A stretch of 64,000 bases of DNA from Cubamyces lactineus (Eukaryota > Basidiomycota > Agaricomycetes > Polyporales > Polyporaceae), in contig JACDTU010000002.1 in the NCBI GenBank assembly GCA_022376465.1, positions 2,542,001 to 2,606,000 of the forward strand. Reading direction: 5' to 3'. Made by a program: the position numbers and the translations under genes. Below, piece by piece: positions 31,924 to 41,102 of the stretch. The notes below the pieces were generated by a model that was given only the letters and a program-made list of their open reading frames with translations, was not told the DNA's origin and searched no databases. Position 1 is the stretch's first letter, and the number at the start of each line of letters is the position of its first letter.

Positions 31924-33143
31924 ATGGCTTCCACAGCGAACGGAACCAGTCATGGGGTCGAGGACTCGAGCCGGTCCGCCGCTGTCGGCACGGTTCCCAC
32001 CCCTCCAAAGTTCTCTTCCAAGGAACAGGAGAGGGCATTCCTGAAGTTCCGCCTCGCGCAAGCCTTCAGAATCTTTGGTCAGTTCTATGTACTAAGTCGT
32101 AAAGAGAGATTGTCTGACATCGTTGGGATTCAGGCAAGCTCGGCTATGATGAGGGCGTCGCGGGGCATATCACAGTCCGAGTGAGCAATCACAAGTAGTA
32201 GTCATCTACGACAGGCAAATCTTGATGCATAGCGTTCTAGGACTGTATTCGCACCGACTGCTTCTGGGTCAACCCATTTGTAAGTAGCCCTACCTGGCAT
32301 TAGCAGACCACTCGTTAACGACACTCATCCGCGACACAGGGAAAGCATTTCTCGCTGATCCAACCCAGCGACCTCATCTTGGTTGACCACCACGCGAAGG
32401 TCCAAACGGCCGAGTCTGGCCCGAATACGCTGCTCAACAAGGCTGCGTTCATGATCCACTCCGCCATCCACGCCGCGCGCCCGGACGTCCACTGTGCCGC
32501 GCATTCGCACTCGGTGTACGGGCGCGCGTTCTCGACGCTCGGGAAGCACCTGGACATGATCACGCAGGACTCGTGCGCGTTCTACGAGGTCCGTGTGTGA
32601 TGTGCGGCGCGGGTGCTTGTGGGCGCACGCTGATTGATGCTGGTGACCTCTGACAGGATCATGGGGTGTACGATCAGTACGGCGGCGTCGTCCTTGACGA
32701 GGAAGAAGGCGCGCATATTGTTAAGGCCATGGGCAACAAGAAGGTATGTCCCTGTCGCTTGCAGACATAGACTCGAGCTCACGACTTGCACAGGCGGTCA
32801 TCTTGCAAGTTAGTGTGATACCATCCTCCCTACCACCGTCTAGTCTCAGGCTGACGTCTCCTATCATCAGAACCATGGCATCCTGGTTGCCACGAACAGT
32901 ATCGAAGCGACGGTCCACTTCTTCATCGCGATGGAGAAGTCATGCCAGGTGCAGCTTCTCGCCGACGCGGCTGCTGCAGGCACTGGGCGCAAGACCGTCA
33001 TCATACCGCCCAAAGATGCCAAGATTACTCATGCCGTTGTTGGCACGATGCTCGCGGGCTGGTTTAGCGGACAGCCTCACTTCCAGCTGCTGGAAGCCCA
33101 AGAGGGCGTGAAGTTTGACTTCACGCAGGGCCCCGCTGCCTGA
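31924..33143 (+). CDS. Class II aldolase/adducin-domain protein
   Basis: The frame starts at ATG 31924. It gives an N-terminal disordered stretch, then FRLAQAFRIFGKLGYDEGVA, GHITVRD, FWVNPFGKHFSLIQPSDLIL and SAIHAARPDVHCAAHSHSVY, which carries the metal-binding His-x-His (AHSHS). YGGVVLDEEEGAHIVKAMG, ILQNHGILVATNSIEATVH and the end HFQLLEAQEGVKFDF follow. The HxH pair and the later conserved His (QNHG) are the zinc ligands of the fuculose-aldolase fold. Fungal members of this subfamily are cytosolic and of unknown substrate; some are annotated as meiotically up-regulated. At least five short introns. A TATAAAT sits about 80 bases upstream. Confidence 0.88.
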
Positions 33144-33808: not shown

Positions 33809-36800
33809 ATGATGTCCTTACGGTCTCTAGCACTTCCTGCGGTTCTGCTAGCTCCTGTGTATTGCGTTGCAGTGAGTGTTACAAGTGTCTTCGACCGCAA
33901 CTTGGCGTACTCCTCGCCGTTTCTAAACCGCCCCCAAGTAAGTCCAGCTATCGGTCGCAACGTACCGAATCATCTATTCCTCACCGCAGCTTCCCCACAG
34001 TTGGCACACGACACAGCCTCGTTACAGGCTCGACATCTTGGTTTTGCTAAGCGTCAATGGTTCTCGGATACGCAGAGCTCAAAGGACTTCAAGGATGAAC
34101 ATTATCCGACCTTTTACGGGGGTGACTTCAGTAATGTAATCAACCTCCGCACGGGTTTCGATGGTGCTGTGCCTTGACTCCAGTGAACGTAGAGCCCTTA
34201 TATTTACAGTGGCGGTGTCAACTTCACCCATTCTGGTTCGTGGCGACTGTCGTATCCCAAGTGAACGACCGGCTGACTGATAGCATTCATCTCCCCTTCC
34301 CCAGTCGCTAGTGTAAGTACTACCTTGCGTTCCAACTATTCTGTGCCACTCATGAACAGACAGGGTGATCCGTTTCACAACTCTGTCTTGCTCTGGACCC
34401 GTGCAGTCCCTCTCGGCCTTCCTGATCAGAGTGTCCCGGTCTGTATCTCATTCAAAATCTTCGCCAACCCTACATTACAAGGAAGGCCTTTAGATACGGG
34501 AGAAGCCTTCACGAGCTACGACGTCGACTTCACACTGAAGATCGAGGCGAAGAACCTTCAACCGGATACCTCTTACTGGTATCAGTTTGCCGACTGCACC
34601 AATCCAGAGGCGACGAGCCCCATTGGCATGACCAGAACGATCTCTAGCCCCGATAGTGAGCTGATGCGCCTTGCGTCTTGATGGCAATCTATGTTGATCG
34701 CCTCCTCTTGCCATGCTATAGCACCTGCGCATCTAGTCAACAAGGGCAAGCCACTGACACTTGCTGTGTTCAGCTGTGCACGGTACCAGGACGGTATGTC
34801 ACCTACTCTATTGCATTGGTTTGGGAATGTTCTGAAAGAGGGTCAGGATATTTCAACGCGTATGGGGTTGCTGCGCACAATACCTCTGCCGACATATTTG
34901 TGCATCTAGGAGATTACGTAGGTGTTGTCGCAGTTGTGTCGTGCACATATATTCATATACTTCATGCAGATTTACGAATCCCTTGGCGACGGGTACGTCA
35001 CCAAATGCTCTCGTACACTGTCACCATGAGCCAAGCCCAATCTTGGACAGCGCTCCCATCGGCCGGGCAACTTTGGGCCGTGAACTAGCGACACTTGAGG
35101 ATTATCGAGGGCGACTGAATCAATATAGGACCGATGTTAGCCTAGTCACTGCCCATCAGAATGCACCATGGATCACAGTATGGTAAGCGGACACTCTGAG
35201 TCATCGCATTGTCACGTACAAACACTGACTAGCCAAACCTCTCGCGCTGAAGGGTAAGCGCCGCGTTCCATATTTCAAAGTAGTTACTCAATTCAGGTCG
35301 GACGCCGCAGGATGACCACGAAGTCGCTGACCAGGCTTGGAAAGCCGGAACTGCCGACAGCAACGATACCACTGTAGGATGCAGCTTCTCTCCTTCCGGC
35401 GCATGCTTCACGGACAGGAAACTGGCGGCGGTGAGAGCGTACCACGAATGGATGCCGATACGACAAGTCGATCCCGACGACAAGCTACGGGTATGGCGTA
35501 ACTTCCAGATCGGCAAGCTGTTGGTGAGGCACTGGCAGGCTGTATACTGCTGGCAATGCTAACCGACAGATGTAGGACCTGACGATGCTGGATACGCGTC
35601 AGTACCGCTTGCTTTCCTTACTTCCCGCAGGGCCCTACAACTAACAGTTCCGCACGCAGGACAATACGATCGAGACATTACCGATGTGCGTCCAGAACTA
35701 TAGCCAGTTTCTATGATGCTGACCACAGGTCTCTCTATGAAGCTGTACTATAACACAGGTGCGGTCTGCGTCTGTCGTGCCAATTCCAATGACGCACTAA
35801 TGATGTTCGTTCAGAATGTGAGAGGGGACCCTGTTCACTATCATTCATGAAACTGAGGAAGTGCTGGATAACTTTAGTCATTGACTCGATTGCCGATGAA
35901 AAGGACAGGTCACTGATGGGAACTAATCAAGAGGCTTGTGAGTGCACGCCGTCCGATCGACCGATGTATACTATCCTCAACTAGTTACAGGGTTCTACGA
36001 TACGCTCTCGGCGTCCCAGAAGCGCGGCGCGATTTGGCGCATTGTGGGGTACGTGTGCACTGCTACTGTAGCTAATTTGGGGACAGATACTGATATGTCG
36101 GATAGTCAGCAGATTGTGTTCACCCAGATAGACTTGATCACGGGCTGTGAGTACTTCAAGTGACGCTGTGTTTGAGGCTGATGCTGACGTTTGTTCGTTC
36201 AGTCGACGTCGTGAGTGACATCATGGGTTGTCCGACGTGGTTCAGAATGCTTGAAGACCGAACCCTATAGGATGCTTGGGATGGCTATCGCGCGAACCGC
36301 AACCGGTTCTTGGACCACCTATACGACAATGACATTGCGAATACCATTATTCTCTCTGGAGACTCGCATGCGAATTGGGCAAGCGATCTAGCGCGTACGT
36401 ACTGAGACAGACTACATCAAACCCATTGAGTACTAACCGTCTAGCAGGACCTAATGATACTATCACGTACGCTTCAGTTGCCAGTCATGCACCCAATGGT
36501 TCACTGTCCTCGCTGATAGATACGATCCCCTCACCGGCGAGGGAGCAATCGGCGTGGAGTTCGCCGGGACCGCGGTCTCGTCCACGTCGACATTTGGTGC
36601 CGGAATCCTACCCGACGCTGCCAACAAGATCTCTCGCAATTATGTGCGGGACAATGTCGACTTGCAGTGGAGCGAGGGCTCGTATCGTGGCTTCTTTACG
36701 CTGACCTTGAACACTTCGACTGCCGTCGCGACGTACTACGCCATGCGCAACGTTAGTGAGTGTCAAAATGATCGCGTTGGACTCGACATGGACGCCGGGA

Positions 36801-37001
36801 TGTTGATAATGACGGGTAGGTTCTGCGAACCTCGACGCGTTCGCGAGCGCGACGTTTATCGTCCACGCGGGTAAATCTTTCCTATCTGTCATGCCTCAAG
36901 CTCTCGTTCATGCGTGTCATTCGATAGGGGCAAACAAGTTATCCCGCCCCGTCGCTGGCGGATCTGTCGGTGCTGGCGTTCTCAAGACACAAGCGTTATG
37001 A
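33809..37001 (+). CDS. PhoD-like phosphatase/phosphodiesterase, tandem copy 1
   Basis: A secreted or vacuolar PhoD-family metallo-phosphoesterase. The N-terminus (ATG 33809 or 33812) is a signal peptide, then VFDRNLAYSSPFLNRPQ. The PhoD core follows: HSVASGDPF, LLWTRAVP, LAVFSCARYQDGYFNAYGV, DIFVHLGDYIYESLGDG, PWITVWDDHEVADQAW, GKLLDLTMLDTRQYDRDITD, QQIVFTQ, DAWDGYRANRNRF, TIILSGDSHANWASDL and IGVEFAGTAVSS. Metal ligands are the Asp of HLGDY, DDHE and SGDSH. Many introns occur. Four exons are tiny: 34305-34312 (8 nt), 35254 (1 nt), 35815-35817 (3 nt) and 36203-36210 (8 nt). Each is needed to restore a conserved motif (HSVASGDP, VWDDHE, YYNTEFID, GFDVDAWDGY). The gene has no stop or frameshift on this reading. 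Its codon use is less GC-biased than copy 2. Confidence 0.85.
35254..35254 (+). other. Putative single-nucleotide exon (G), PhoD copy 1
   Basis: The exon ending at 35182 finishes with GTA TG; the next coding block begins GAT GAC CAC at 35311. A single G between introns 35183-35253 (71 nt, GTAAGC...GAAG) and 35255-35310 (56 nt, GTAAGC...GCAG) completes TGG and restores VWDDHE. Sequential removal recreates a donor TGG|GTAAGC. The alternative is one intron from GTATGG at 35179, which deletes Val-Trp. Confidence 0.6.
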
Positions 37002-37875: not shown

Positions 37876-40800
37876 ATGATGCTTCCCGTGCTGCTTGGAA
37901 CCGTTGTGCTCGGCGCTGTACTGACGGGCGCCACGGAGCTCTTTGATCGCAATCTAGCATACTCCTCGCCTTTTGCCAATGCACCCCATGTGAGTGGACG
38001 ACGTACTTGTCGCGGCGGGCGCGCTGCTGACGTGCTACTTTTTTGGACAGCTCTCGCATAACACCCGCGCTTTGAAGGCTCGGCACATCGCGTTCGCTAA
38101 ACGACAGTCTCAATTGGACGATACTCGGAGCTCACATGGGTTCACGGACGAGCATTATCCTACCTTCTATGGTGGGGACTTCAGCACTGTCAGTCAACGG
38201 AACATGTTCAGCACGCTATTCGTTTCGTAGCGCTGAACTTGTGTTGCCTACTAGAGCCCTTGGATCTACAGCGGCGGCATCAACTTTACTCACTCTGGTA
38301 AGCACTACCCCACTATACTCGAGGCCCATAATGCTCACTCGCAGCGTTTCCACCAGTTGCTAGTGTACGAGCGCCGTGGCAGTCATTGCTTATATACTCA
38401 TCATCTTGCTCTACCAGGGCGACCCCTTCGATGATTCCGTCCTGCTCTGGACGCGCGCGGTCCCGATCGGCTCGGCTCTCCCAGACCAGAGCATCCCCGT
38501 CTGCGTGTCGTTCAAGATTTTCAGCAACGAGAAGCTCTCAGGGCGTCCTGTCGACTCGGGAGAGGCGTTCACTAGCTACGACGTCGATTTCACGCTGAAG
38601 GTCGAGGCGAAGAACTTGAAGCCTGATACCTCTTACTGGTTCCAGTTCGCGGATTGCACAAATCCCAAGACGACCAGTCCCGTCGGCACGACGAGGACCA
38701 TCTCTAGCCCAAACAGTGAGCACTCTTGCAATCTTACAATGAAAAGGAGGTTGGTCATTGAACGTCGTTCTGTCAGCTCCTGCGCATCAGGTGAACAGGG
38801 GAAAACCTTTGACGTTCGCTGTGTTCAGCTGCTCTCGCTACCAAGACGGTACGTAACAGAGGTAGCGTTCAGGGAAGATGCTGTGTCCTTAGTCACTTCC
38901 CGTACACAGGCTACTTCAACGCCTACGGCGTGGCTGCTCACAACACGTCTGCAGACATCTTTGTCCACCTGGGCGATTACGTATGGTGTTCATTCGCTCC
39001 TTGTATTGAGAAGTTCTAATATCCTGTTGTAGATCTATGAATCTCTGGGGAGCGGGTGCGTGTGGCCACCATCAGGTTGTTGCGTGTCTGGAGCAATTCG
39101 TTGACGTTGATCTTGACAGTGCCAAAATCGGTCGGAAAACCCTTGGGAGGGAGCTAGCTACCATCGCCGACTACCGTCTACGCTTGAACCAGTACAGAAC
39201 TGACGTCTCGCTTCTTGATGCTCATGTGAAGGCTCCGTGGATCACTGTATGGTGAGTTTCGAGCCTTCTATCGACCTCTGGAACGAAGAACTGACCACGA
39301 CATAGGGTGAGTATTGTTCTTCGCGTATCTTGGGCAGGATGTGTATCGATCCGTCCGAATTGCAGGACGATCACGAAGTCGCCGACCAAGCTTGGAAGGC
39401 GGGTACAGCCGATAGCAATGACACTAGTGTGGGGTGCAGCTTCTCGCCTTCCGGGGCGTGCTTCACGGACAGGAAGCTCGCCGCTGTCAGAGCCTATCAT
39501 GAATGGATGCCTATCCGCCAGGTGGATCCAGACGACAAGCTGCGCATTTGGCGGAACTTCCAGATCGGCAAACTACTGGTAGGTTCGCATTTACGATCAT
39601 GCGCAGAACACTCCGACTAACAGAAGACACTCTAGGATCTAACCATGCTTGACACTCGTACGGCAGAACTTGGATTGCATGAGCCTGCATCGCTGACATA
39701 CTGAACTAGGTCAATACGATCGTGACATTACGGATGTACGTAGTACATCCTTGCGTTTTGTTCTGCGCACTCAACCTAGACGTTTGATAGCTCTACTACA
39801 ACACCGGTATGTGCATCGCGACATGTCAACGCGACGGAAGCGGTTTGACTGACCGCTGCGGCTGGTTTCTATAGACTGTAGGCTCATTGGCCATCTCTAA
39901 GTTGCACGTATAGTACTCACTAGGCCCCCACAGTCATCGACTCGATCGCCGACGAGGAGAGCCGTTCGCTCATGGGGACGGAGCAGGAGAGTTGTAAGTC
40001 GCATGACCCATTATGGTTCTGATTCGCCATATAACTGCGTGTGCTAGGGTTCTTCGATACCCTCTCCGCCTCGAAGAATCGCGGTGCAATATGGCGTATT
40101 GTCGGGTACGCTGGCCTCGGGACCTGACATTGATAAGACAGTAGATACTGAAGAGCACCTTTCCACTGGCAACAGTCAACAGATCGTCTTCACGCAGTTG
40201 AACGAGAGTGGCTGTAAGCATCGAAATCCTCTGAGTCTATCCAGTGGCAGTTGTTAACACTGCCCCCATGCAGTTGACGTTGTAAGCATCACTGCGTGGT
40301 CACCGCATGACGAAAGATAGACTGTGGGCGTACTAGGATGCGTGGGACGGCTACCGCGCTAACCGTGAACGAGTCCTCAACCACCTGTACAATGAGAGGA
40401 TCAGCAACACCATCATCCTCTCTGGAGACTCGCACGCCAACTGGGTGAGCGACCTCGCGCGTGAGTGTTGACTGCTAGCAGTTCGTCGATCCATCCAATC
40501 ACTCACCTATCCGTCTGTCCAGACCCGAACGACACAAAGACGTAAGCCATGTATCTGCACTGCCCAAGCAGTGCCACTAACTTCCCCCCGGCTCGACAGA
40601 TACGACCCCATAACCGGCAAAGGAGCCATCGGCGTCGAGTTCGCCGGCACGGCCGTCACCTCCAGCTCCGCGTTCGGCGCGGGGATCCAGCCCGCCGCGG
40701 CGGACAAGATCTCGCAGGTGCTCGTGGGGATCAACGAAGACCTGCAGTGGAGCGAGGGCTCGTACCGCGGCTTCTTCACGCTCACGCTGAACACGACGAC

Positions 40801-41102
40801 CGCGGTCGCGACGTACTACGCTATGCGCAACATCAGTGCGTCCACCCTCTTCTCCTGGACTGGGGATTTTTACGAGCTCGTGGACGGGATGTGCTGACGG
40901 AGATGAACGGTGTGCAGGTAACCCGAACTTGAACGCGTTCGCGAGCGCGACGTTCGTTGTCGAAGCAGGTGCGCACATTCCGTACGGTATTCACTCCTTG
41001 CGCGTGTCCGTTGACGTTCACTGGATGCTAGGCGCGAACAAGCTGGCTCGGCCTGTCGCAGGGGGCTCCGTGCAAGCGGGTGTACTCAAAGTTCAAGGCT
41101 GA
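37876..41102 (+). CDS. PhoD-like phosphatase/phosphodiesterase, tandem copy 2
   Basis: A paralogue of the preceding gene in the same orientation, with the same exon plan. From ATG 37876 (or 37879) it has a signal peptide, LFDRNLAYSSPFANAPH, HSVASGDPFDDSVLLWTRAV, AVFSCSRYQDGYFNAYGV, IFVHLGDYIYESLGSGAKIG, PWITVWDDHEVADQAW, KLLDLTMLDTRQYDRDITD, QQIVFTQLNESGFDVDAWDG, IILSGDSHANWVSDLAHPND and IGVEFAGTAV; it ends GGSVQAGVLKVQG. The same four micro-exons occur: 38357-38364 (8 nt), 39306 (1 nt), 39875-39877 (3 nt) and 40274-40281 (8 nt). Third positions are richer in G/C than in copy 1, so this may be the more strongly expressed copy (inference). All metal-ligand motifs are intact. The substrate is unknown; phosphate scavenging is likely from the family. 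Confidence 0.87.
39306..39306 (+). other. Putative single-nucleotide exon (G), PhoD copy 2
   Basis: It is flanked by introns 39252-39305 (54 nt, GTGAGT...CATAG, with a CTGAC branch site) and 39307-39365 (59 nt, GTGAGT...TGCAG). The G completes TGG before GAC GAT CAC (VWDDHE). An alternative acceptor at about 39335 keeps the frame but inserts nine residues (MCIDPSELQ) inside the motif, and copy 1 has no equivalent. Confidence 0.6.

Follow-up and report, generated by a model that had tools for sequence, protein, structure and literature searches.

One nucleotide is the smallest exon that a spliceosome could handle, and only three nuclear genes reported to contain such an exon were found in the literature searched. 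A nuclear one-base exon is described in APC11 of Arabidopsis (PMC4674806), one-base exons of APC11 and VPS55 are followed across land plants (PMC8831610), and one in CYP621A of Fusarium (Nelson and Syed 2026) is presented by its authors as the first in a fungal gene (PMC12940212). The last report also mentions an 8-nucleotide micro-exon in the basidiomycete Phanerochaete chrysosporium, and a mitochondrial one-base exon is reported in placozoan cox1 (PMC5436844). A different arrangement of closely spaced introns is the stwintron, defined as an external intron interrupted by an internal intron (PMC5639578). No earlier one-base exon of a basidiomycete was found among the titles and abstract openings of the open literature, subscription papers lying outside this search. 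The one-base exon of the PhoD genes described here is a new case of this known but very rare kind of exon.

The window, a stretch of 64,000 nucleotides of Cubamyces lactineus taken from an assembly of 36.3 Mb in 43 contigs, contains two tandem paralogues encoding PhoD-type alkaline phosphatases, whose gene models were built by hand (Table 1). Both products score far above the Pfam cut-off of 27 bits for PhoD (copy 1, 341 bits, E 7.6e-102; copy 2, 341.4 bits, E 9.7e-102) and also exceed that of 30 bits for PhoD_N (75.9 and 71.8 bits). The positions and phases of all introns are identical in the two models, and each copy has one exon of 1 nt, one of 3 nt, and two of 8 nt. The proteins are identical at 498 of 609 aligned residues, whereas 165 of 250 fourfold-degenerate sites differ; by the NG86 method dN is approximately 0.13 and dS is not computable because of saturation. 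The frames of 24 exons, which are otherwise open, and this dN with a saturated dS indicate that both copies are under protein constraint.

Table 1. Features of the two tandem PhoD genes, numbered by position in the window
Feature	Position	Strand	Description
PhoD copy 1	33809..37001	+	24 coding exons, 618 aa; 23 introns, all GT-AG, 51-70 nt
Copy 1 exon 4	34305..34312	+	8 nt, TCGCTAGT; part of VASGDP stretch; manual model
Copy 1 exon 9	35051..35182	+	ends ...ATC ACA GTA TG (phase 2)
Copy 1 intron 9	35183..35252	+	70 nt, GTAAGC...CTGAAG; branch-like CTGAC 24 nt before end
Copy 1 exon 10	35253..35253	+	putative one-nucleotide exon, G; completes TGG (Trp)
Copy 1 intron 10	35254..35310	+	57 nt, GTAAGC...CCGCAG
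Copy 1 exon 11	35311..35523	+	starts GAT GAC CAC GAA (DDHE)
Copy 1 exon 15	35815..35817	+	3 nt, AAT; manual model
Copy 1 exon 19	36203..36210	+	8 nt, TCGACGTC; manual model
PhoD copy 2	37876..41102	+	tandem paralogue; 24 coding exons, 614 aa; 23 introns, all GT-AG, 52-82 nt
Copy 2 exon 4	38357..38364	+	8 nt, TTGCTAGT; manual model
Copy 2 exon 9	39120..39251	+	ends ...ATC ACT GTA TG (phase 2)
Copy 2 intron 9	39252..39305	+	54 nt, GTGAGT...ACATAG
Copy 2 exon 10	39306..39306	+	putative one-nucleotide exon, G; same layout as copy 1
Copy 2 intron 10	39307..39365	+	59 nt, GTGAGT...TTGCAG
Copy 2 exon 11	39366..39578	+	starts GAC GAT CAC GAA (DDHE)
Copy 2 exon 15	39875..39877	+	3 nt, ACT; manual model
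Copy 2 exon 19	40274..40281	+	8 nt, TTGACGTT; manual model

Several polypores have, among the matches listed, two PhoD proteins whose contigs are of identical length: Cubamyces lactineus (P0001 and P0035), Cubamyces sp. BRFM 1775 (P0002 and P0023), C. menziesii (P0003 and P0028), Pilatotrama (P0004 and P0036), Earliella (P0005 and P0022), and Trametes elegans (P0021 and P0115). Those of Ganoderma sinense carry the consecutive tags GSI_13936/13937. The tandem pair is therefore probably old. The end of a gene just upstream of copy 1 (32844-33143, plus strand) weakly matches the class II aldolase/adducin domain (E 0.00075, 19.9 bits, under the Pfam cut-off of 22.2), and a model from Psilocybe cyanescens (P0090) consists of PhoD fused with such a domain, the two observations together hinting at a conserved neighbourhood of PhoD. 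A third, distant PhoD-like gene lies on the minus strand elsewhere (L014, G000:C5:1108500-1114500) and reads IHTYDDHEV where the pair has ITVWDDHEV. It is uninformative on the intron discussed below.

In both copies, a single G stands between the AG of one intron and the GT of the next, in the context AG|G|GTAAGC in copy 1 and AG|G|GTGAGT in copy 2, and the introns on either side are of normal size (70 and 57 nt in copy 1, 54 and 59 nt in copy 2) as compared with 51-82 nt (median 57.5 nt) for the 42 remaining introns of the pair. The base is needed both for the frame and for a conserved residue. An earlier note on this DNA had placed the end of the upstream coding sequence at 35182 and its restart at 35311, had pointed out that one intron across the gap would shift the frame, and had proposed that a lone G completes TGG and restores VWDDHE; the sequence agrees on the first point, and a single intron of 128 nt in copy 1 or 114 nt in copy 2 is indeed out of frame. 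The G itself lies one base to the left of where the note had it (35254), because the acceptor AG occupies 35251-35252 and GTAAGC begins at 35254, so that the flanking introns given as 71 and 56 nt are those of 70 and 57 nt in Table 1.

The restoration of the motif was examined by enumerating (i) all models with a single GT/GC-AG intron having both ends within approximately 30 nt of the outer sites and (ii) all models with two introns in which the outer sites were fixed and each intron was at least 45 nt. Among these, only the one-nucleotide exon yields exactly VWDDHE, as the note had proposed, and it does so in both copies. The remaining in-frame models gain or lose residues. Two of them occur at corresponding positions of copy 1 and copy 2: one uses a GTATGG donor and is considered below; the other uses a GC donor at 35163 in copy 1 and 39232 in copy 2, with introns of 148 and 134 nt, and loses seven residues before DDHE. 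Alternatives confined to one copy include an intron of 86 nt in copy 2 that leaves VW followed by nine further residues before DDHE, in frame. The tryptophan before DDHE is also present in solved bacterial PhoD structures (VTWDDHE in 2yeq, VAIWDDHE in 9uya). If the base were skipped, a premature stop would be reached 22 codons past the joint in copy 1 and 73 codons past it in copy 2, an outcome compatible with a regulatory 'poison' switch.

The arrangement was compared with dinucleotide shuffles (20,000 per copy) in which the outer donor hexamer and the acceptor were kept and both introns were required to be 50-83 nt. The form AGGGTRAG, which was picked after the site had been seen, arose in 9 of 20,000 shuffles of copy 1 and 3 of 20,000 of copy 2, and plain AGGGT in fractions of 0.0188 and 0.00885, respectively. 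The one-nucleotide exon is kept at the DNA level in the diverged paralogue although the flanking introns cannot be aligned between the copies beyond what shuffles give: 190 of 200 shuffles reach the observed alignment score for intron 9 and 81 of 200 for intron 10. Intron 20, which aligns better than 199 of 200 shuffles, is the sole clear case among the 23 intron pairs. Taken over the paralogue, the shuffles, and the enumeration of models, the predicted site is beyond chance.

The donors flanking the one-nucleotide exon beat 21 of the 42 reference donors in copy 1 and 28 in copy 2. The acceptor of intron 9 in copy 1 (CTGAAG) is weak and beats only 1 of the 42 reference acceptors. The branch motif YTRAY is absent from intron 10 in both copies, as it is from the last 50 nt of 17 of the 42 other introns. 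The bare pattern of twin introns (GTRAGN{44,74}AGGGTRAG) is not enriched across the source assembly: 78 matches with GTAAG and 124 with GTGAG were counted, below the 132 and 159 of a reversed control. Because the pattern is unremarkable genome-wide, the case rests on coding constraint and conservation in the paralogue and not on the motif. Among the genome-wide matches listed, 20 of the 202 were picked by eye for intron-like acceptors and their upstream frames were checked (L049-L068); some, such as L049, L056, and L063, are intron-like and may represent additional exons of one base.

Protein models of relatives provide a second line of evidence. Three protein searches returned 6981, 7998, and 7954 matches, and the best 120 of each gave 151 distinct proteins, namely 141 with fungal names, all of which we take from their genera to be Agaricomycetes, and 10 from jgi/lgn contigs. 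Each joint between exons was scored for insertions or deletions within three residues in the alignment to copy 1. Such indels occur at the joint of the one-nucleotide exon in 94 of the 151 proteins and at the joints of the 3-nt exon in 92 and 90, as compared with 2-29 at the 18 remaining joints. Joint 18, with 50, was kept apart from this comparison; it lies in a variable stretch adjoining an 8-nt exon. With copy 2 as the reference, 111 of the first 120 proteins have indels there, a result of the one residue that copy 2 lacks at this place relative to copy 1; copy 1 was therefore used thereafter.

At the VWDDHE site, the 151 proteins fall into five groups: 55 are exact, 24 are without VW, 26 have VW with extra residues, 28 are without DDHE, and 18 are otherwise altered. 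Some of the errors have the form that a missed one-base exon would leave. Six models read through an in-frame second intron of 54-63 nt, giving W-V[SRG]...Q-DDHE, and nine have Tyr or Cys directly after the Trp, the outcome expected if the reading ran past a TG|GTAC or TG|GTGC donor, three of these then being without DDHE; a tenth protein matching the latter form (P0028) was excluded because its flank differs. The paralogue and these broken models strongly support the reading of G35253 as a single-nucleotide exon, and we consider it very probable that G35253 and G39306 are constitutive one-nucleotide coding exons of the tandem genes.

The 24 proteins without VW bear on the alternative that survives best, namely one long intron beginning at the GTATGG donor (35178 in copy 1, 39247 in copy 2) and giving ITDDHE without Val-Trp. 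The earlier note had named this alternative, rightly as to its frame and product in both copies and one base off in its position (35179). The intron is in frame in copy 1 (133 nt) and copy 2 (119 nt), GTATGG serves as a donor in intron 7 of copy 2, and the 24 of 151 proteins lack VW in the matching way, among them P0001 of Cubamyces lactineus itself, the best protein relative of copy 2, to which it is 96% identical. However, this donor beats just 1 of the 42 reference donors, the introns exceed the range of 51-82 nt, the tryptophan common to bacterial PhoD is discarded, and AG-G-GTRAG in both copies is left as a coincidence. None of the 24 is among the uninterrupted open reading frames of the jgi/lgn contigs, the longest contigs of which are 2.0-9.7 kb: all 10 read [VI]WDDHE, none reads ITDDHE, and all are ungapped at the 3-nt joint. 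The proportion of 10 in 10 is biased because broken frames would go unlisted, and it informs only on whether VWDDHE or ITDDHE is read. Whether their source is spliced RNA or copies that have no introns, these frames argue against a normal product with ITDDHE. No relative was among the 15 pattern matches that exon 11 gave in a search of viral contigs. We regard the long intron as improbable.

If the one-nucleotide exon is accepted, each G would be flanked by two ordinary short U2-type introns, and the joining of TG, G, and GAT would give the tryptophan codon TGG adjoining the DDHE metal ligands. Because these two introns, like all others of the gene, are short, they would probably be recognized by intron definition and removed successively. 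U1 pairs with donor positions -3 to +6. On the second donor it would cover 35251-35259 and with it the AG that ends the first intron, and the two introns would therefore be removed in turn and not at once; sequential splicing is thus likely. Either order would be possible since neither the donor at 35254 nor the acceptor at 35252 needs a prior splicing step to become complete. We infer this route and its order from the arrangement of the sites.

The same arrangement bears on the proposal of the note that the pair is a recursively spliced twin intron, a donor being recreated by removal of the first intron. Such a reading would fit introns one base apart that are probably spliced in sequence. 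In both copies, however, donors and acceptors are intact in genomic DNA: the second donor (GTAAGC or GTGAGT) and the AG of the first acceptor are whole in the unspliced transcript, no donor or acceptor element is interrupted, the donor was never split, and the exonic G between the introns is retained in the protein frame. With both splice sites intact before splicing, the pair falls outside the strict definition of a stwintron, and we give that classification very little credence. Two further explanations are the least likely of all. An assembly error or pseudogene would make the site an ordinary TGG|GTAAGC intron that has lost one base, with an AG-G-GT inside it by chance. An extra G at 35183 would be enough to give a simple phase-0 intron, but this explanation demands independent loss of the same base in both paralogues, both of which also carry a well-placed AGGGTRAG and keep the rest of their frames open at the dN given above. 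Equally implausible is a single GT-CA intron (35183-35309 in copy 1) with the exonic G drawn from the final CAG, which would give an identical mRNA and is in keeping with CAG|GA at the end of both copies, but its lengths of 127 and 113 nt are outside the range, the internal AG-G-GTRAG stays unexplained, and we know of no use of CA as a U2 acceptor.

The distribution of the motif among the proteins listed follows the orders of fungi, which we assigned by genus. The site reads exactly VWDDHE in 8 of 51 proteins from Polyporales, 17 of 55 from Agaricales, 0 of 7 from Russulales, 2 of 9 from Hymenochaetales, and 0 of 1 from Gloeophyllales, as compared with 11 of 11 from Cantharellales, 3 of 3 from Auriculariales, 3 of 3 from Phallomycetidae, and 1 of 1 from Corticiales; these counts are not independent, given the kinship of the proteins and the annotation pipelines they have in common. 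Outside the jgi/lgn set, 45 of the 141 relatives are exact at the joint. The pattern in these protein models suggests that the exon is common to many Polyporales, Agaricales, Russulales, and Hymenochaetales. In Cantharellales, Auriculariales, Phallomycetidae, and Corticiales, the exon is probably absent, or the models are simply right. The order pattern also suggests that the exon was gained after the earliest splits. We lean toward a single origin in the stem of Polyporales, Agaricales, Russulales, and Hymenochaetales, after the split from Cantharellales and Auriculariales, with retention in most species. If so, it would have the widest distribution of any one-base exon known from fungi and would account for the wrong PhoD catalytic motifs in a large fraction of public mushroom proteomes.

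The 3-nt exon has probably been missed widely by annotation as well, given the indels at its joints in 92 and 90 of the 151 proteins. Its joint is ungapped in 8 of 9 proteins from Hymenochaetales and 5 of 7 from Russulales, and is gapped in 3 of 3 from Phallomycetidae and 1 of 1 from Corticiales, the reverse of the one-nucleotide joint there. A common origin of the two exons was considered and dropped because their spreads over the orders differ.

For the public record, the consequence is that many deposited PhoD proteins of Agaricomycetes are without the metal-binding motif or have it in garbled form, and the one-nucleotide exon seems to have spoiled many of these gene models. Until they are fixed, enzyme work, phylogenies, and domain models that draw on them would be misled. 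A duplicated gene with exons of 1 nt, 3 nt, and twice 8 nt is also a natural test of how physically overlapping splice sites are used in turn.

Among the systems described, the closest is CYP621A of Fusarium (PMC12940212). Both are fungal genes in which a G exon lies in the context AG|G|GT inside a conserved motif, both are revealed by a mismatch of phase and by a composite intron over twice as long as is usual, and in both the deposited models are wrong. They differ in that CYP621A is an ascomycete P450 whose exon supplies the middle base of a glycine codon, is documented by SRA reads, and is conserved across a genus, whereas the PhoD genes encode a basidiomycete phosphatase in which the exon would supply the last base of a tryptophan codon, is deduced from the sequence, and apparently extends over several orders and two paralogues. 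APC11 and VPS55 of plants (PMC4674806, PMC8831610) resemble the PhoD genes in having a single base between canonical introns that is unannotated and deeply conserved; the proposal made for APC11 combines intron definition with recursive splicing. Those are unrelated plant genes whose products were shown by reporter, RT-PCR, or RNA-seq, whereas the PhoD exon is deduced from the genomic sequence. With the stwintrons of Pezizomycotina (PMC5639578, PMC9024468, PMC12403724), the PhoD introns share short length, close neighbourhood, probable sequential removal, and frequent absence from annotation; in stwintrons, however, the donor, branch, or acceptor element of one intron is divided by another intron lying inside it, whereas the PhoD genes would have two complete introns with a coding base between them.
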